Origin: an endosymbiont of Lamellibrachia barhami
Lineage (GTDB): Bacteria > Pseudomonadota > Gammaproteobacteria > Chromatiales > Chromatiaceae
Length of the DNA: 32,699 nucleotides
Reading direction: 5' to 3'
Assembly (NCBI RefSeq): GCF_011947365.2
Contig: NZ_JAAVSH020000001.1
Coordinates: 1,878,084-1,910,782 of the forward strand
Made by a program: the position numbers and the translations under genes. The first letter of the stretch is position 1; each line of letters starts with the position of its first letter. Positions 14,744 to 23,627 of this stretch are shown one piece after another. The notes below the pieces were generated by a model that searched no databases, was not told the DNA's origin, and saw only the letters and a program-made list of their open reading frames with translations.

Positions 14744-17431
14744 ATGAGCGATGCTGCAACCAATAACAAATCAAATAACTCATTGGCCGAACGTTATGCG
14801 GCCTTTGTAGTCCGTCACCGCAAACCGCTGATGTTTCTGTTGTTGATCATGACGGTCATCACTGCGCTGCAGGTCAAGAATCTGGATATGCGCAACGATC
14901 CTGATACCCTGTTGCCGCCCAGTAACCGCTATGTCGCTACCAATCTCTATGCCGAGCATAACTACGGCATGGGCAATCTGATGGTTGCCACGCTGCGGAT
15001 CAAAGAGGGTGATGTCTACCAGGATTGGTTTATCAACAAGGTACAGGAGATCCATGAAATATTGGTCTCTCTGGATACCTCCCGGCCTTCCAACTTCATC
15101 GACATCGCGGCGAAGAAGATCAAATATATGGGGGCGGATGAAAATGGACTCGTTTTCAAACGGCTGATTCCCACCGAAGGCATCAGCAGTGACCCTGCAA
15201 CGGCCAAAGAGCAGCTCGCCTTTCTAAAAGAGGGTATCGAAGCAAACCCTGTAATGGGGCCGATGTTGGTGGGGTTTGAAGACACGGATGGCAATAAATG
15301 CGAATTTTCTGAGCGCATCGCAAAAAACTGTATCGCCAAATCGCTCTTTATCATTGGTGACTATACCGACGAGGTAAAAGAGATCTACCTGCCCTGGGTA
15401 CGTGAAGTACGTGCCATGATGGATGAGCATGGTGCGGATGACCGCTATGAGCTTTTGGTGGCGGGTGAGCCCTACTTTCTTGCCTGGATGCTGGCGGACC
15501 TGGTCAACAAATGGTGGCTCTTTGTCATCTCATTGGTGATCGTGGTTGCGGCGCTCTGGTTTGAGTTTCGCAACTGGCGCGGGGCGCTGTTCCCGATGAT
15601 TGGCGTCGGCGCGACCATCATTTTGACCCTCGGTCTGATGGGTTTTACTGCATTCAAGTTGACTACCATGATGGTGCTGACTCCGATGTTGCTGTTGGCG
15701 ATCGGTATTGGGCACTCGGTACAGGTGACCCGCCGATTTATGCAGGAGCAGGCGAAGGGGGTTGAGTGCGAGACCGCCGCCAAGATTTCGATCTCCCATA
15801 CTATCGTGCCGGCCACGCTCTCAATCGTGACCGACATGGTGGGTTTTGCCACCCTGGCGACGGTGGATATCTCCTTCTACAAGGCATACGCCTACTTCGG
15901 TATGTTCGGCATGCTGACCCTGCTGTTCTCAACCACGACATTGATTCCATTGCTGATGCTCAGCTTTCCCTGCAATAAAGTGGAGGCGAATCAGGAAGAG
16001 GCCGAACTCGAACGGGGGTGGGAGACCAAGGTGGGGGGCTTCATCTCCGGTCTGCTGGCAGGACCGGGCAAATGGCTGCCGATTGCTTTTGTCGCGTTGA
16101 TCTTCGGTGTGTCGACCTACTATACCGATATCCTCAACGGGACTTCCGACGATCTGATGCCTGGCGTGGAGAAGGGGATCAACTACTCCCGTGCCGCATT
16201 CAAGGAGCAGTCAATCACCATTCAGCAGATCGAACGTCTGAATGAGATCATGCCCGGGGTTATCTCCGTGACCGTGCCGATTCGAGGCAAGGAGCCGGTG
16301 GTGGAAACCTGTGTCGACGAACCCTTTCCTGAAGAACTCTTCGATATCGAGGATATGGGCGAGCGCCTGGTACAGTGCGAGAAGTACAAGACAAAACTTG
16401 GATGTTGGGATCCCGATCCCTGCGGGGCTCAGGGAATCTTCAATCAGGCAGATGTGTTGGCGGATATCGAGGCGATGGAGGAGTGGATGCGCGCCCATAA
16501 GTTTATCGGCTTCACCGGCTCCTATGCGCAGTACATCCGTCTCCTCAACATGCTGTTGACTGCTGAGCCGGGCACCATGCCGGACATCAAGGATCTCTAC
16601 ATCCCGACCTCTGCCAAGCTGCGCAGCATCGATCCGGAAGACGATCGCAGTGGTGACGATATTGTGCAGCTCTACAATGGTCTGCTGGAGACCATGACCG
16701 ATGATGGTGACATGGACTCCTTCGTTGCAGGATTGGGTGATGGCGTGATAATGGAAGCTTTATCCAGCACCATGGGTCCGAAGGGGAACCCATGAAGGTC
16801 ACCCGTGGTGGTCAGCAACGGTAATATCGGGGATCACAAGAATGGTCCGGTTTTAGCAGGTCGAAGGTTGTTCGGTCTGCGCGCGGGTCCGGTGGAAGAC
16901 CTGTCGGGGTGACCTGTGGGGTTATCCGTGGAGGGACCCGGCTATGTCAGGCCTGCGGTTGGCGGTTTCCTTGGGGCGACAGAGGCGACCCGGGAAGTCA
17001 ACGGTTGCTTAGCTGGCTCTCGGTCCACATGCTGGTAGCGATGATCTTCGTCTAAATTTGCGGCACTGATATTCCGCTCGGTGACGGTTTCGACGATCTG
17101 GTTGTTTGTACGTTTGTCGCTCTCTATGCCCAGTACGGTCTTGGCGGCTACTTCACCAGCGTGAAGAACTGGTCCGGCAATCTCGCCTTCCATCTGCAAG
17201 TTGCATTGAGTATCGCCAATGGGACTGGGTGTCGACTACGGCATCTATATGATCTCGCGGCTTCGAGAGGAGATGCAGGCCACCGCCGGTTGGACAAAGT
17301 CGCTGGAGAACACCCTGAACACTACCGGATCTGCGGTCATTGTCTCCGTACTGGTGTTGCTGGGCTGTTCATCCGCTGCTGGTGTTGATCCAGCGGAAGC
17401 ACGGGGATTGGGTATCGTTGAGCGCTTCTGA
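14744..17431 (+). pseudogene. RND/MMPL-family permease, intact N-terminal two-thirds, decayed 3' part
   Basis: The first frame (14744-16795, 683 residues) has a cytoplasmic N-terminus, TM1 (PLMFLLLIMTVITAL), a periplasmic domain, a bundle of five helices typical of MMPL/RND half-transporters (from WWLFVISLVIVVAALW to LTLLFSTTTLIPLLM), another helix, and a second periplasmic domain. It stops at GPKGNP. Beyond that, parts of the expected second helix bundle remain in several frames. Examples are GGFLGATEATREVNG (from about 16960), ALIFRSVTVST (from about 17061), MPSTVLAATS, and MGLGVDYGIYMISRLREE followed by SAVIVSVLVLLGC (17219-17370). Stops and frame changes separate them. Homology ends near 17370-17431, where truncated hppA begins on the other strand. 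The family exports lipids or other hydrophobics using proton motive force. The full transporter cannot be made as read. Confidence 0.85.
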
Positions 17432-18526
17432 TCGATGTGGTGACGGCGCTGTGATGTGCCTTACTGGGGAATACTCAGTCGCGGTGTAGTACTCGGTGAT
17501 CACAACCATCACAGCAGTCAGCGCCAGACCGATCAGGGAGGAGCCAAACAGCGCTATGACCGGGTTGGTGACGCCTTCGATTACCACGTCAGCCATCATG
17601 TGGTCAGTGACAAAGTAGAAGGCCACTGCGGCGATGATACCGGCAACGGCCAGACCCTTGTAGAGGGCGATCATGATCCTGGCATCACCCTCTTTCGTCT
17701 GCACGAAATAGGTGCCGATTATGGAAGCGATGATGGAGACGCCGCCGAGCACCAGTGGGTAGGTGATCGCAGAGCCACCGGTGACCAGCAGGCTACCAAG
17801 CAGCATGGTGGCGACCACGGTGACCGCGTAGGTCTCGAACAGGTCGGCGGCCATGCCAGCGCAGTCGCCCACGTTGTCGCCCACGTTATCGGCGATAACG
17901 GCAGGGTTGCGTGGGTCATCCTCAGGGATGCCCGCCTCTACCTTACCGACGATGTCAGCGCCCACATCCGCACCCTTGGTGAAGATGCCGCCGCCGAGTC
18001 GGGCAAAGATGGAGATCAGCGAGCCACCGAAGGCGAGGCCGACCAGCGCGTGCAGTGCATCACCGTCGGAGACGCCCATGCTGTGGAGGACGGCGTAGTA
18101 GCCGGCGACACCCAGCAGACCCAGGCCAACCACCAGCATGCCGGTGATGGCGCCGCCGCGAAAGGCGATCTGCAGTGCGGCGTTGATGCCGTTGTTGGCG
18201 GCTTCTGCGGTACGCAGGTTGGCGCGAACCGAGATGTTCATGCCGATGTAGCCGGTAGCGCCGGAGAGGATGGCGCCAATGGCGAAGCCGATGGCGGTGG
18301 CGGTGCCGAGGGCCGCCCACAGTACGACGAACATGATCGCGCCGACGATGCCGATGGCAGTGTACTGGCGGTTAAGGTAGGCGGTGGCGCCCTCCTGTAT
18401 GGCAGCGGCGATCTCTTTCATTCGATCGTTGCCTTCCGGCTGTGCCAGTATCCATTTGATGGATACAACTCCATAAGCCAGTGCAGCAACGGCACAGACC
18501 AGACTAAAAATTAGTTCGTTACTCAC
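17369..18526 (-). pseudogene. hppA: Membrane H+-translocating pyrophosphatase, C-terminally truncated
   Basis: Residues 1 to about 358 match membrane pyrophosphatases very well. They include helices at the N-terminus, the catalytic motif of form D-X7-K-X-E (D187...K195-V-E197), the substrate loop [19 protein letters not shown] and [12 protein letters not shown]. After [16 protein letters not shown] (near 17455) the sequence becomes unrelated and stops 27 residues later. Full-length enzymes are about 670-700 residues, and the missing half carries the second set of PPi/Mg ligands. The enzyme couples PPi hydrolysis to proton (or sodium) pumping. The region that distinguishes K+-dependent from independent forms is lost. 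AGGAGGG seven bases before GTG 18526 supports the start. It lies downstream of pfp, its usual metabolic partner. Confidence 0.9.
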
Positions 18527-18719: not shown

Positions 18720-19976
18720 TTAGATTTCGAATTTTTCCAGCTTCTGCGGCACTGCCGCGCCTTTCATGGTGACGTACTTGGGCATTCCATTGTCGTCATA
18801 CTCGGGGTAGGACTCGCCCTTGATCAGCGGGTAGAGGTACTCCTTGCATTTGTCGGTGATACCGAAGCCGTCTTCGGTGATGAAATCCATCGGCATCATC
18901 TTCTCGACATTGGCGACCTCGCTCAGCGGGGCTTCACCGATGCTCCACTTGTAGGGATTGGAAGATTCGCGAACCACGGTCGGCATGATGGAATTCTTGC
19001 CTTCCAGCGCCTTTTCCACAGCGGCCTGGCCCAGGGCATAGGCCTGCTCGACGTCAGACTCAGAGGCCAGGTGACGAGCCGCGCGCTGCAGATAGTCGGC
19101 CACTGCCCAGTGGAACTTGAGGTCCAGGGCATCTTTGACCATGTTGGCGACGATCGGAGCTGCGCCGCCCAGCTGGGCGTGACCGAAGGAGTCGCGGGTG
19201 CCCTGTTCGGCCAGGAAAGTACCATCAGGGTAGTGGGCGCCTTCGGAGACGCAGATAGTGCAGTAGCCGTGCTCTTTCACCTTGGCATCGACTGCAGCGA
19301 TGAATTTCTCCTTGTTGAACTCGATCTCAGGGAACAGGGTGACAACCGGGATGCCGTAGTCCTCGACCAGCGCGCCAGCGGCGGCGATCCAGCCGGCGTG
19401 ACGACCCATTACTTCGATTACGAAGATCTTGGTGGAGGTGGCAGCCATCGAGCGCACGTCGTAGGAGGCCTCCAGGGTGGAAACGGCAATATACTTGGCT
19501 ACGGAACCGAAGCCTGGGCAGTTGTCGGTGATCGGCAGGTCGTTGTCCACGGTCTTCGGCACATGGATTGCCTGAACCGGGTAGCCCATTTTTTCGGAGA
19601 GCTGGGAGACCTTGTAGCAGGTGTCGGCAGAGTCGCCGCCGCCATTATAGAAAAAGTAGCCGATGTTGTGGGCCTTGAAGATCTCGATCAAACGCTCATA
19701 TTCACGCTTGCTCTCCTCCAGCCCTTTCAGTTTGAAGCGGCAGGAACCGAAACCGCCGGAAGGGGTGGTCTTCAGTGCGGCGATATCCTCTGCGGACTCC
19801 TGGGAGGTGTCGATCAGATCTTCGGTCAATGCACCGATGATGCCGTTGCGGCCGGCGTAGACGTTGGCAATCTTGTCGCTGTGCTTGCGGCAGGTCTCGA
19901 TGACGCCACAGGCGGACGAGTTGATGACTGCGGTCACGCCGCCGGACTGGGCGTAGAAGGCATTCTTTGCTGTCAT
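18720..19976 (-). CDS. pfp: Pyrophosphate-dependent 6-phosphofructokinase
   Basis: 418 residues. It interconverts fructose 6-phosphate and fructose 1,6-bisphosphate using PPi/Pi in the cytoplasm, serving glycolysis, gluconeogenesis and, in autotrophs, possibly sugar-bisphosphate steps of the Calvin cycle. The donor-specific residues are both of PPi type. NGGGDS (111-116) has Asp where ATP enzymes have Gly, and PKTVDND (140-146) has Lys where ATP enzymes have Gly; this segment also carries the catalytic Asp. MGRHAGW (190-196) binds the sugar phosphate. A GGGAG about ten bases upstream fits the ATG. The neighbouring hppA encodes a PPi-consuming or -producing proton pump, the arrangement known from sulfur- and methane-oxidising gammaproteobacteria. 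Here only pfp is intact. Confidence 0.95.
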   Translation of the reverse strand: MTAKNAFYAQSGGVTAVINSSACGVIETCRKHSDKIANVYAGRNGIIGALTEDLIDTSQESAEDIAALKTTPSGGFGSCRFKLKGLEESKREYERLIEIFKAHNIGYFFYNGGGDSADTCYKVSQLSEKMGYPVQAIHVPKTVDNDLPITDNCPGFGSVAKYIAVSTLEASYDVRSMAATSTKIFVIEVMGRHAGWIAAAGALVEDYGIPVVTLFPEIEFNKEKFIAAVDAKVKEHGYCTICVSEGAHYPDGTFLAEQGTRDSFGHAQLGGAAPIVANMVKDALDLKFHWAVADYLQRAARHLASESDVEQAYALGQAAVEKALEGKNSIMPTVVRESSNPYKWSIGEAPLSEVANVEKMMPMDFITEDGFGITDKCKEYLYPLIKGESYPEYDDNGMPKYVTMKGAAVPQKLEKFEI

Positions 19977-20028: not shown

Positions 20029-20445
20029 TTATTTCAGGTCGCCCCGCTCTTTGGCCGCATAATCGGCCTGTGTCTGCAGCAGGGAGACGATACATTCGGT
20101 CAAATCGTCATATTCATGGACGCCGGTACCGTACTGCTGGTATCCCCGGTAGAAAAATTGGCAGCGGTATCTACGGTCGCCCGTCTTGAACAGCACGAAG
20201 TTGCACTCTTCCTCGTTCCAGTAGACGACAGGGCAGCTTGTGAGCTCTCTGTCAGAGAGCATCAGACGTATCTCTGCGTCTGCGAGCTGCAAAGGCACAT
20301 CGCGATCGTAGCGCTCTTTGAGGGTGGTATCGATGATCCAGCGCTCTGTGTCGGTAATATCTGAAATTTCCGGCATGGGGGGGAAGGTCTGCAGTCCGTC
20401 AATTAAATCAAGCCCAGAGTCGCCGGGCCACGGAGGTCGAAGCAT
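20029..20445 (-). CDS. Hypothetical protein upstream of pfp
   Basis: 138 residues, family not recognised. It is soluble, with no signal peptide or membrane helix. Acidic and aromatic residues dominate (WIIDTTLKERYDRD, PVVYWNEEECNFVLFKTGDRRYRCQFFYRGY). The central part reads like a small mixed alpha/beta domain, and an RRYRCQFFYRGYQQYG stretch is rich in Arg/Tyr. A GGGG about nine bases before ATG 20445 is a possible ribosome binding site. It ends 53 bp before pfp on the same strand, so it may be in the pfp transcript. Coding is supported by length, codon pattern and an otherwise empty region on both strands, not by homology. Confidence 0.6.
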   Translation of the reverse strand: MLRPPWPGDSGLDLIDGLQTFPPMPEISDITDTERWIIDTTLKERYDRDVPLQLADAEIRLMLSDRELTSCPVVYWNEEECNFVLFKTGDRRYRCQFFYRGYQQYGTGVHEYDDLTECIVSLLQTQADYAAKERGDLK

Positions 20446-20699
20446 AATCGATTGCCCCGGATGAGTACATAAACTTCGTTGACTTTAGGGGGATTCTTAT
20501 ATTAGCTTACCCAAGCTGATCAACGGCGGCCAATCCAAAACTTGGATGCAGTCATGGAATTTCCTAATTAGCTGATGGTGTAGGGCATGGGACAGCGTTT
20601 TTTTCGCTTCCTCCAGCGTTTGGGACATGGGTGTTTATCCAAATTTGGCTGCGGGTTGGCCACACATTTAAGATACCACTTAACTAAAGGGGAGTGGCG

Positions 20700-22337
20700 A
20701 TGAGAATCGTTCTGCTTGGAGCGCCAGGATCGGGTAAGGGAACCCAGGCCAAAAAGATTGTGGGGAGATACGGGATTCCCCAGATCTCCACCGGGGATCT
20801 GCTGCGGGCTGCTGTGGCGGCGGAGTCTGAACTGGGCAGGCAGGCCAAGGAGGCAATGGAGTCGGGGCACCTGGTTTCCGACGATATTGTCCTGGCCATG
20901 ATCCGGGAGCGTCTGCAGGCCCAGGATGTGAAGGAGGGATACATTCTCGACGGTTTCCCGCGCAATCTTGCTCAGTCCGAGACCCTTGACGGCATGCTTG
21001 ATGCGTTGGGTCAGCCTTTGGATCTCGCGATACTCATCCATGTGGAAACCGATGCGCTGATGGAGCGGCTCGTGGGGCGGCGCAATTGCGAGTCCTGCGG
21101 TCAGATGTACAACATCTACAGCAATCCCACTATCGTCGAAGGTGTGTGCGACAAGTGCGGCGGCAAGCTGCATCAGCGGGTGGATGATAATGAAGAGACC
21201 ATCAGTCATCGGCTGCATGTCTATGACAACCTGACCGTGCCGCTGATCGATCATTATGATGAACAGGGCAAGCTACGTCGGATCGAAGGCGCAGGGGAGA
21301 TCGAAGAGATCTTTGCAGGCGTTTGTCAGATTCTGGATGGAGTCGCTGCATCCCCTGTAGCTGAGGTGGAGACGCCGCTGCCGGAAAAGGATGATGAGGT
21401 GATGGAACCGGAACAGATTGCACCACCCGAGCCGGAGTCTGAGCCTGAGGTTGTTGCGGTGGTCGAGTCAGAGCCGGTCGCAGTGATGGAGGCGGTTGAA
21501 GAGAAAGTGCCTGAGAAAATCACGGTGGCGGAAGAGAAGGTTGTTACGAGGAAGAAGGCGCCAGCCAAGAAAAAGGTGAAGGCGAAGAAGAAGGCCTCCT
21601 CTAAGAAAAAGGTAGCTGCTAAGAAGAAGGTGTCCACCAAGAAAAAGGCATCGACGAAGAAGAGGGCCTCCTCTAAGAAAAAGGTAGCTGCTAAGAAGAA
21701 GGTGTCCACCAAGAAAAAGGCATCGACGAAGAAGAAGGCCTCCGCCAAGAAAAAGGTGGCCGCAAAGAAGAAGGTGTCCAGCAAGAAAAAGGCATCGACG
21801 AAGAAGAAGGCCTCCGCCAAGAAAAAGGTGGCTGCGAAGAAGAAAGTGTCCAGCAGGAAAAAGGTGAAGGCGAAGAAGAAGGCCTCCGCCAAGAAAAAGG
21901 TAGCTGCGAAGAAGAAGGTGTCCACCAGGAAAAAGGTGAAGGCGAAGAAGAAGGCCTCCGCCAGGAAAAAGGTAGCTGCAAAGAAGAAAGCGTCCACCAG
22001 GAAAAAGGTGAAGGCGAAGAAGAAGGCCTCCGCCAGGAAAAAGGTGGCTGCGAAGAAGAAGGTGTCCAGCAGGAAAAAGGTGAAGGCGAAGAAGAAGGCC
22101 TCCGCCAAGAAAAAGGTGGCTGCGAAGAAGAAAGCGTCCACCAGGAAAAAGGCATCGGCGAAGAAGAAGGTCTCCGCCAAGAAAAAGGTAGCTGCGAAGA
22201 AGAAGGTGTCCACCAGGAAAAAGGTGGCGGCGAAGAAGAAAGCCTCCTCTAAGAAAAAGGTGGCTACCAGGAAAAAGGTAGCCGCAAAGAAGAAAGTGTC
22301 TTCCAAAAAGAAAGCGGCTGGAAAGCGGCGGCGGTAG
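20700..22337 (+). CDS. adk: Adenylate kinase with a histone-H1-like lysine-repeat tail
   Basis: 545 residues against about 215 for ordinary adenylate kinase. Residues 1-216 form a complete long-type enzyme (ATP + AMP to 2 ADP). They include the P-loop GAPGSGKGT (7-15), the AMP-binding STGDLLR and DGFPRN (84-89), and a zinc-type LID with C130, C133, C150 and C153. Residues ~217-285 are an acidic, proline-rich spacer (EPEQIAPPEPESEPE). From about 286 to the end is a lysine-rich tail made of six-residue units ending KKK or RKK, arranged as ten 24-residue repeats (299-538), closing with GKRRR. Such tails bind DNA or polyanions in bacterial H1-like proteins. A ribosome binding site (AGGGGAG) precedes ATG 20700, and a GTG two codons earlier was rejected. 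It is monocistronic with a strong terminator. Enzyme activity is near-certain; tail function is inferred. Confidence 0.93.
   Translation: MRIVLLGAPGSGKGTQAKKIVGRYGIPQISTGDLLRAAVAAESELGRQAKEAMESGHLVSDDIVLAMIRERLQAQDVKEGYILDGFPRNLAQSETLDGMLDALGQPLDLAILIHVETDALMERLVGRRNCESCGQMYNIYSNPTIVEGVCDKCGGKLHQRVDDNEETISHRLHVYDNLTVPLIDHYDEQGKLRRIEGAGEIEEIFAGVCQILDGVAASPVAEVETPLPEKDDEVMEPEQIAPPEPESEPEVVAVVESEPVAVMEAVEEKVPEKITVAEEKVVTRKKAPAKKKVKAKKKASSKKKVAAKKKVSTKKKASTKKRASSKKKVAAKKKVSTKKKASTKKKASAKKKVAAKKKVSSKKKASTKKKASAKKKVAAKKKVSSRKKVKAKKKASAKKKVAAKKKVSTRKKVKAKKKASARKKVAAKKKASTRKKVKAKKKASARKKVAAKKKVSSRKKVKAKKKASAKKKVAAKKKASTRKKASAKKKVSAKKKVAAKKKVSTRKKVAAKKKASSKKKVATRKKVAAKKKVSSKKKAAGKRRR
21594..22313 (+). 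repeat. Ten tandem 72-bp repeats encoding the lysine tail of adk
   Basis: Exactly ten consecutive 24-codon units, each opening with ASx, ASA or VSA and carrying four KKK/RKK blocks, fill this span without indels. Each unit is itself four 18-bp (six-residue) subunits. Unit-to-unit differences are mostly block swaps (ASTKKK versus VKAKKK) and K/R changes. This suggests growth by recombination or slippage between units, and copy number is likely to vary between strains. Confidence 0.95.
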
Positions 22338-22363: not shown

Positions 22364-22394
22364 AAAGGACTCCCTGAATTGGGAGTCCTTTTTT
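22364..22394 (+). terminator. Rho-independent terminator of adk
   Basis: A perfect 11-bp stem (22364-22374 with 22381-22391) and 6-nt loop TGAATT are followed by a T tract, 27 bp after the adk stop codon. Confidence 0.92.
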
Positions 22395-22435
22395 GTGGCG
22401 CCCAGAGAGCTTGTCGGTGGGGCGCCGCTCCCACA
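22395..22435. repeat. REP-like hairpin, different from the 30-bp family
   Basis: The arms GGCGCCC (22397-22403) and GGGCGCC (22420-22426) can pair around a 16-nt loop. On the minus strand the element opens TTGTGGGAGCGGCGCC, a start reminiscent of REP sequences in Pseudomonas and related bacteria. It sits immediately after the adk terminator. Only one copy was noticed, so its repeat nature is inferred. Confidence 0.35.
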
Positions 22436-22473: not shown

Positions 22474-23004
22474 TTAATTCTTTTTTTCACCCGCTCGCCG
22501 GAATTCAGTGCCGTGGCACCCGGAGCAAGGTGGGATGTGCCCGGTTTTTTTGAAATGCATCTCTTTGCCGCAGCTTGAGCAGATCAGTGTGCCGGGCCCG
22601 GTGACCTCACCTGTGTGGTATCGGGATGCCTCTTTTGCCCGTTCTGCGATCTTGTTCAGCTCCAGCTTGGTCTGATCCGCCACTCTGGAGAACATTTCGA
22701 TCATTCGGTCTTCCACCTGATGGACATCAAACTGCCACCACTCGGATAGCTGTTCCCCGGTCTCAATCAAGTAGTGCGCGGCATCTTTCACATCCCGCTC
22801 GACATAGCCGGCGACCTTATCCGCCTCCTCGCGGCTCAGTTCACCCAGTTCGACGGCCTTCTCCTTGGCATCGTCAAAATAGTCCTTGAGACCCGGGATG
22901 GCATTCTCCTTTGTCGATTCAATGGCATCATGCACATGCTCGAGAATCTCCTCATAAGCGTCTGTGAGTCTGTCCAGTGGATTTTTGTTGTCGGGATCTG
23001 TCAT
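22474..23004 (-). CDS. Zinc-ribbon protein, DUF1451 family (YbeL-like)
   Basis: 176 residues. The first ~125 are a long charged helical region (LTDAYEEILEHVHDAIES..., AKEKAVELGELSREEADKV). A C-terminal zinc ribbon follows with CSSCGKE and PCSGCHGTEF, two CxxC knuckles about 17 residues apart. This is the layout of DUF1451 proteins such as E. coli YbeL, whose gene also neighbours leuS. Molecular function is unknown. It is divergent from the globin-leuS genes. A small hairpin (22452-22467) follows its stop on the minus strand but lacks a clear U tract. Confidence 0.88.
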   Translation of the reverse strand: MTDPDNKNPLDRLTDAYEEILEHVHDAIESTKENAIPGLKDYFDDAKEKAVELGELSREEADKVAGYVERDVKDAAHYLIETGEQLSEWWQFDVHQVEDRMIEMFSRVADQTKLELNKIAERAKEASRYHTGEVTGPGTLICSSCGKEMHFKKTGHIPPCSGCHGTEFRRAGEKKN

Positions 23005-23225
23005 GGTCTGCTCCTTACCGCGGTCTCACCGCAATTTTCTGGTTCTTCTATTAGTAATAATGGATGAAATTTACGCGTTGGCAAATGATCCGGGCCAATT
23101 GAGATGGTCTTCGAACCAGGAATGGTGAAATTTACTGACCGTTTCATGAGAAACTCTGTTATTACCCATTGGCTGCAATGGTGCGCAGGCTGCACCCAAA
23201 TTTGAGAATCTTCGTGACCACCACA

Positions 23226-23627
23226 ATGAATGAAATCGACCGGAAACGTTTTCGTGAAAGCCTCAGACGCTCCACAGCGAATGATCAATTTCTTGATCGT
23301 TTTTACGACCGCTTCGTTGGCCAATCCGATGAGGTTGCGGCTTTTTTTCATAACCGGGATATGCCGCAAATCAAGCAGAAGTTGCTTACCACCCTGGAGA
23401 TGCTGGCTGACACAACAGAGGGTCAACCGGGACTGGGGATGTACATGGAGATGCTGGGAAAGATACACCGGCGCCTGAATGTGGAACCTCGTTTTTTTGC
23501 CGGTTGGCGAAAGGCATTGGTCGAGACAGTGGCGGAATGTGATTCGGAGTTCAGTGAAGAGACTCGTCTTGCCTGGGAGCGGGCGATCGACCATGTGATT
23601 GAGCGAATGTCCGACCCAACTTCCTGA
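23226..23627 (+). CDS. Globin-like protein
   Basis: 133 residues from ATG 23226. The frame is open 57 bases farther upstream to a TTG, but those residues look non-coding. Segments match bacterial globins: FLDRFYDRFVGQSDEVAAFF near the N-terminus (helices A-C), then IKQKLLTTLEMLAD, a likely proximal histidine in KIHRRLNVEP, and the helix FFAGWRKALVETVAECDSEF. Such single-domain globins bind haem and O2 or NO and may act in NO detoxification or oxygen sensing. No reductase domain is present. Its stop directly precedes the upstream reading frame of leuS (TGA at 23625-23627), and it is probably co-transcribed with leuS. Confidence 0.75.
   Translation: MNEIDRKRFRESLRRSTANDQFLDRFYDRFVGQSDEVAAFFHNRDMPQIKQKLLTTLEMLADTTEGQPGLGMYMEMLGKIHRRLNVEPRFFAGWRKALVETVAECDSEFSEETRLAWERAIDHVIERMSDPTS

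Follow-up and report, generated by a model that had tools for sequence, protein, structure and literature searches.

Adenylate kinase is the textbook case of a soluble housekeeping enzyme that balances ATP and AMP. In the window analysed here, a stretch of 32,699 nucleotides from an endosymbiont of Lamellibrachia barhami, the gene for such an enzyme runs on into a long lysine-rich C-terminal tail. This raises the questions of whether the fusion is real and what a polycation does on an adenylate kinase.

The gene occupies positions 20700 to 22337 on the forward strand and encodes 545 residues and a stop codon, as judged by the open reading frame list, Pfam and NCBIfam profiles and five genomes of the same genus. 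The frame is listed from 20694 to 22337 (forward strand) with a GTG start and contains no internal stop. Inspection by eye showed that this upstream GTG overlaps a Shine-Dalgarno-like site, AAAGGGGAG, at 20686 to 20694 on the forward strand. Because this site lies 5 nt before the ATG at 20700, the ATG is the likely translation start, giving the 545-residue protein. Behind the gene, a possible intrinsic terminator was seen by eye at 22367 to 22395 (forward strand), where the 8-bp stem GGACTCCC/GGGAGTCC is followed by seven T. A terminator scan did not return this stem and gave a different one at 22417 to 22434. Open reading frames antisense to the tail are by-products of its repeats.

The adenylate kinase core, delimited by Pfam, NCBIfam, alignment and AlphaFold2, comprises residues 1 to 215 (20700 to 21344, forward strand). 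Pfam ADK matched residues 5 to 190 with 180.4 bits (cut-off 26.8) and ADK_lid residues 127 to 162 with 54 bits (cut-off 26.6), and the NCBIfam adenylate kinase model NF001380 scored 288.9 bits (cut-off 251). The P-loop K13 is present together with T31, D33, R36, D84, R88, R123, R127, R160 and R171, and the zinc cysteines C130, C133, C150 and C153 are all in place. All 16 active-site positions checked, which we take to be P-loop, AMP-site and phosphate-binding residues, and the CCCC motif of the LID are thus intact. AlphaFold2 gave a pLDDT of about 90 across the core. Like the zinc-type adenylate kinases (NF001380; the solved structures 1zin and 5g3y), the core is whole, carries a zinc LID and aligns without gaps over residues 1 to 214. 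By profiles, residues and alignment the protein is a zinc-type adenylate kinase, and its residues suggest that it catalyses ATP + AMP = 2 ADP. D84 is not mentioned in the available passages of PMC10399197. Two more adenylate kinases are encoded in the same genome, a zinc-free (L001) and a zinc-type enzyme (L003), both untailed and with intact active sites.

Known zinc-type enzymes stop near residue 217, whereas the window protein runs 330 residues further. By composition, residues 216 to 281 (21345 to 21542, forward strand) form an acidic spacer with 20 aspartates or glutamates and four lysines in 66 residues. The H1-like tail, delimited by composition and AlphaFold2, covers residues 282 to 545 (21543 to 22334, forward strand). 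Its 264 residues include 124 K, 55 A, 31 S, 27 V, 14 R and 11 T, but not a single D or E; with K and R making up 138 of the 264, it is C-terminal, repetitive and lysine-rich like the tails of the TopA type. TRF found a 72-bp tandem array of 10.2 copies, corresponding to 24-residue units, at 21547 to 22279 on the forward strand (90% matches, score 1030), and also a 36-bp period of 12 residues. The tail is mostly predicted to be disordered, with an AlphaFold2 pLDDT below 50 for most of residues 220 to 494; the last 55 or so residues are weakly helical, with a moderately confident helix at the end of the protein. The array contains 35 single-base differences, of which 15 are synonymous where 23-28% would be expected (one-sided p 0.007-0.046); this weak excess is suggestive only, as array copies are not independent. 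When the tail was searched alone (21546 to 22334), no Pfam or NCBIfam family matched at E 0.01, the H1-like families Pfam HC2 and NCBIfam NF038053 included, in a test weakened by low complexity.

The initial annotation had described a full adenylate kinase core with P-loop, zinc LID and AMP site, continuing through an acidic spacer into an H1-like basic tail of ten 24-residue repeats. The profile scores and residues, the single frame from ATG 20700 to the stop at 22337, the tail composition and the TRF array all agree with this. The spacer is likewise present, but it ends near residue 281 and not at 299. Its suggested role as an intramolecular counter-ion fared less well. Conservation of the strongly acidic spacer extends over the window's genus but not generally over the tailed proteins compared, so a counter-ion role would be lineage-specific.

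Whether related genomes share the fusion was a point that the initial annotation had left for checking. It was found in all five same-genus genomes examined, with cores 96-97% identical; the copy of G003 (L006) is truncated by its contig end, and in G005 the fusion lies on a single contig. The nearest named record, an endosymbiont of Lamellibrachia anaximandri (L034), has a core 97% identical. The tail length in the genus ranges from 272 to 440 residues in the rows not cut by a contig end, so the repeat number varies. For a wider view, a species scan took one genome per species and the best 80 of 475 relatives; they were ranked towards the intact window, so eroded relatives are under-sampled. 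In 60 of these best 80 loci the kinase carries a basic tail that is 60 residues long or longer. The remaining 20 comprise 18 proteins that stop near residue 217, one that is interrupted by the end of its contig and one fragment of 141 residues.

A class survey covered 370 gammaproteobacterial genomes that are at least 90% complete. It listed 90 rows whose open frame reached 300 or more; 87 of them proved to be tailed, two were untailed (G423, G574) and one was obscured by N. Since scores were followed down to about 214 bits and at most eight candidates were scored per genome, at least 87 of the 370 genomes carry a tailed adenylate kinase, and the counts of adenylate kinases may be low. In 37 of the 87 genomes the tailed protein was the sole adenylate kinase found, and in 36 of these 37 all 16 positions are intact; L195, also a sole adenylate kinase, has T31S and one zinc cysteine replaced. 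A separate search of 50 named tailed genomes, for which completeness was not given, found 22 with one adenylate kinase. The tailed adenylate kinase is a large gammaproteobacterial family and no one-genome oddity.

The history of the tail was followed on two trees, a first one of 145 rows with a mixture model and a larger one of 223 distinct cores, tailed and untailed, with LG+G4. The larger tree left out L064 and L089, whose cores are identical to L230 and L239. Loci of genomes already in the set were skipped. Both trees come from short, quick searches, and the eroded rows stand on long branches. The tail state changes at least eight times in the larger tree and at least five times in the first. 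Tails were lost in some lineages, so the tail is dispensable somewhere. Among tailed proteins not cut by a contig end, ten have more than six D or E in their last 60 residues. These are coiled-coil-like endings or apparent frame shifts, and some are perhaps frame-shifted. In L056, L169, L199, L209 and L210, charged coiled-coil-like segments follow the lysine stretch in place of a purely basic end.

The main clue to the tail came from relatives in which the active site has decayed. Of 181 tailed rows, 46 (L128 left out) have lost at least two of the 16 active-site residues; 32 of them came from an order survey, five from the class survey, five from close relatives and four from the species scan. 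The residues lost most often are D33 (41), D84 (35), R36 (33), T31 (27), G14 (26) and T15 (26). The zinc CCCC is kept in 180 of the 181 rows, including all degraded ones. Candidatus Thiodiazotropha is among the eroded genera. Its tailed proteins have G14R, D33E, mostly R36K, and more; in the first tree they fall together with the window's genus, which is intact (92 SH-aLRT). Active-site degradation occurred at least twice in the first tree and at least four times in the larger one. Judged by the residues lost, the eroded proteins are presumably inactive.

The tail did not decay with the active site. Of the 47 degraded proteins counted, 46 still have it, and the 47th (L133) retains a short remnant of 36 residues. 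Among rows that do not run into a contig end, the median net charge of the tail is +62 in 113 intact and +74.5 in 46 degraded proteins (L128 included), and the median length is 186 and 229.5 residues, respectively. The composition of the tail is conserved despite sequence drift. The kinase domain, too, appears to be constrained. The dN/dS medians of five degraded groups are 0.10, 0.18, 0.11, 0.11 and 0.20, against 0.05, 0.08 and 0.10 in three intact groups; many pairs are saturated, and the medians exclude those whose dS exceeded 2 or could not be computed. These values point to purifying selection and not to decaying pseudogenes. A model of the degraded core L086 keeps the adenylate kinase fold with a pLDDT of 92.5, and all 50 PDB matches listed are adenylate kinases. 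Since the eroded relatives keep the tail, the zinc cysteines and purifying selection, the tailed protein is apparently selected for a role that is independent of kinase activity. The persistence of the tail also suggests a separate function for the tail itself, probably a hold on DNA or RNA. A local interconversion of ATP and AMP, as initially proposed, cannot be the whole story, since 46 tailed relatives combine the tail with an eroded active site.

In raw counts, erosion goes along with the presence of other adenylate kinases. Among the degraded tailed proteins, 45 of 48 share their genome with another one, against 65 of 123 among those that are intact; the tailed protein is the sole one in 3/48 and 58/123, respectively (raw Fisher p 1e-7). 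When kinship was corrected for, only three independent pairs remained (p = 1), with about four changes on the tree. Because this corrected test has too few events, the association is a pattern and no proof. The three degraded proteins that are apparently the sole adenylate kinase of their genome are L128, which has two odd P-loop changes that are maybe sequence errors, and L139 and L140, whose assemblies are 90 and 91% complete.

The neighbourhood of the gene was also compared. Upstream and divergent lies pfp (18720 to 19976, reverse strand), a pyrophosphate-dependent phosphofructokinase by Pfam and by NF010675 (624.5 bits, cut-off 273). Beside tailed adenylate kinases it is the conserved neighbour found most often. 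Tailed loci with fewer than two losses have a divergent upstream pfp in 83 of 117 cases and those with two or more (L128 included) in 41 of 41, against 4 of the 24 untailed loci for which 1.9 kb or more of upstream sequence was present; the orientation is divergent in all 128 loci that adjoin pfp. Between pfp and the kinase gene, a protein of 138 residues (20029 to 20445, reverse strand) that matches no Pfam or NCBIfam family occupies this position in many tailed loci, across many genera. A membrane pyrophosphatase gene is also often present further on in tailed loci. In the window this gene, hppA (17369 to 18526, reverse strand; Pfam and NCBIfam), is shortened to its N-terminal half: the frame corresponds to residues 3-362 of a pyrophosphatase model with 691 positions and continues with unrelated residues, whereas the frames in all 17 other loci checked have 678-727 residues. 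The hppA gene is thus broken or rearranged in this genome. Downstream of the kinase gene are a DUF1451 zinc-ribbon protein (22474-23004, reverse strand) and a globin-like protein (23169-23627, forward strand), followed by leuS, lptE and holA. Many biosynthetic steps release AMP and PPi together, and pfp, hppA and the kinase look like a neighbourhood for AMP and PPi recycling. As the linkage is also seen beside eroded kinases, it may reflect ancestral gene order.

We propose, with moderate confidence, that the disordered polycationic tail holds the adenylate kinase on nucleic acid, be it DNA, RNA or both. Nucleic-acid binding is expected because the tail is a 264-residue polycation without acidic residues. 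It would bind nucleoid DNA and/or RNA without sequence specificity, as the lysine repeats of TopA and HupB do. Where the protein is the sole kinase, as in 37 of the 370 class genomes, it would carry out the ordinary balancing of ATP and AMP while held on a nucleic-acid-rich region of the cell. Where extra kinases exist, the tethered protein would be retained for a joint role of tail and folded domain while catalysis decays; this reason for the retention of eroded proteins is our suggestion. In the window's genus, the intact active site and the two other adenylate kinases argue for what is probably an active, DNA- or RNA-associated second kinase.

Other targets of the tail were considered. Lysine-rich tails of the H1-like kind bind any polyanion, and the tail might sit on ribosomes or mRNA and not on the nucleoid, so that AMP is recycled where aminoacyl-tRNA synthetases release it. 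The gene of another tailed adenylate kinase, PRK13808, between secY and rpsM-rpsK would fit this idea. However, adk usually lies between secY and ribosomal genes in many bacteria, tailed or not, and the window gene has pfp and hppA and no ribosomal genes as neighbours, so we consider the ribosomal target unlikely. Slightly less likely is binding to polyphosphate, to pyrophosphate-handling proteins or to acidic membrane lipids in a phosphate-recycling module with PPi-phosphofructokinase and H+-pyrophosphatase. The enrichment of pfp beside tailed genes and a PPK1 in the window's genome speak for such a module, but pfp is absent beside 34 of the 117 tailed intact loci and its linkage survives next to eroded kinases, so that it may be no more than ancestral order. 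Polyphosphate, which the initial annotation had named as a possible target, may apply in the window's genome with its PPK1 but is disfavoured as a general target, because a search for PPK1 and PPK2 found neither enzyme in 18 of the 65 tailed genomes. A link to sulfur oxidation, with AMP serving APS reductase, was considered as well.

That the tail has no function of its own and is a tolerated product of repeat slippage is improbable. Its unit is a clean DNA tandem repeat, the purity of which can come from slippage, and the number of repeats varies within the genus. Against this, the tail persists in at least 87 class genomes and on nearly all degraded proteins, its charge is conserved without sequence conservation, and a similar tail occurs on PRK13808, another adenylate kinase class. 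An artefact of assembly or annotation, with kinase and tail as separate products or joined by a frameshift, was rejected and is extremely improbable. Long repeats are error-prone in assemblies, and in a few tails the frame seems to change midway (L020, L054, L198), but the window frame has no stop and the same fusion occurs across the window's genus and class, including the single-contig genomes G005, G583, G258 and G244.

The family has further implications. Some members are sole kinases and others are eroded, which provides a natural experiment that separates the role of the tail from catalysis. A coupling of the energy charge to the state of the nucleoid or ribosome by a tethered nucleotide enzyme becomes testable. 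Eroded copies with a tail, such as those in Thiodiazotropha, may carry a wrong annotation as adenylate kinases. A speculative and rather doubtful extension is that the protein is an energy-sensing chromatin protein in the making, in which the kinase fold would be a nucleotide switch (ATP, ADP, AMP or Ap4A) that controls the grip of the H1-like tail on the chromosome. If so, DNA compaction would follow the energy charge, sensing would have outlived catalysis and led to pseudo-adenylate-kinase nucleoid proteins in several genera, and the window's genus would be caught ahead of the catalytic loss.

Literature searches gave no description of a lysine-tailed adenylate kinase and no relevant title among the matches listed, in line with the initial remark that no such system was described; in the accessible part of PMC3779200, adenylate kinase comes up solely as a reagent in an assay. 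Within the reach of these searches, the retention of the tail on eroded kinases is also undescribed. Lysine-repeat tails on bacterial proteins as such are already known, and the view that H1-like tails usually stand alone is too narrow, as they occur on TopA, HupB and Ku according to the portions available of PMC7398561 and PMC5676037. Actinobacterial topoisomerase I (TopA) is, like the window protein, an enzyme with a C-terminal H1-like lysine-repeat tail, and its repeats keep it on DNA (PMC7398561, in the portion available); however, a topoisomerase already works on DNA and an adenylate kinase does not. In the mycobacterial HupB, a basic tail of the PAKK/KAAK type is required for stable DNA binding, as stated in the available part of PMC5676037, but HupB is a nucleoid protein and the window protein an enzyme. 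The proteins of the Hc2 and NF038053 type resemble the window tail in composition; they are free-standing, whereas the window tail is fused to a kinase and matches neither family at E 0.01. A free-standing lysine-rich protein of 131 residues with similar repeats is encoded in the window's genome (L243:1404-1796). It gave weak matches below the cut-off to Hc2 PF07382 (18.8/40 bits) and NF038053 (25.6/80 bits) and weakly resembles H1-like proteins of the Burkholderia type. In G017, the contig that bears the tailed adenylate kinase also has, at a distance of about 4 kb, a free-standing lysine-rich frame of 156 residues (L244:851-1318, reverse strand).

For adenylate kinase itself, an NCBIfam model that carries no comment on the tail was found. 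PRK13808 (NF010381) is a 335-position model named just 'adenylate kinase' in the library. Its cut-off was passed in 11 of 397 genomes of the phylum, all with one family code, that of another proteobacterial family (L247-L257), and is not reached by the window protein (168.2 bits, cut-off 426). As in the window protein, a lysine/alanine-rich tail follows the kinase: all 11 have K-rich tails, of about 95-119 residues with a K+R fraction of 0.36-0.42. In contrast to the window protein, they belong to the short-LID class, their tails are a third to half as long and the setting is secY-adk-rpsM, checked with Pfam for L255 and by eye for L247, L248, L253 and L257. Because the kinase class and the gene location differ, the PRK13808 tail was probably gained independently of the tail of the window family.
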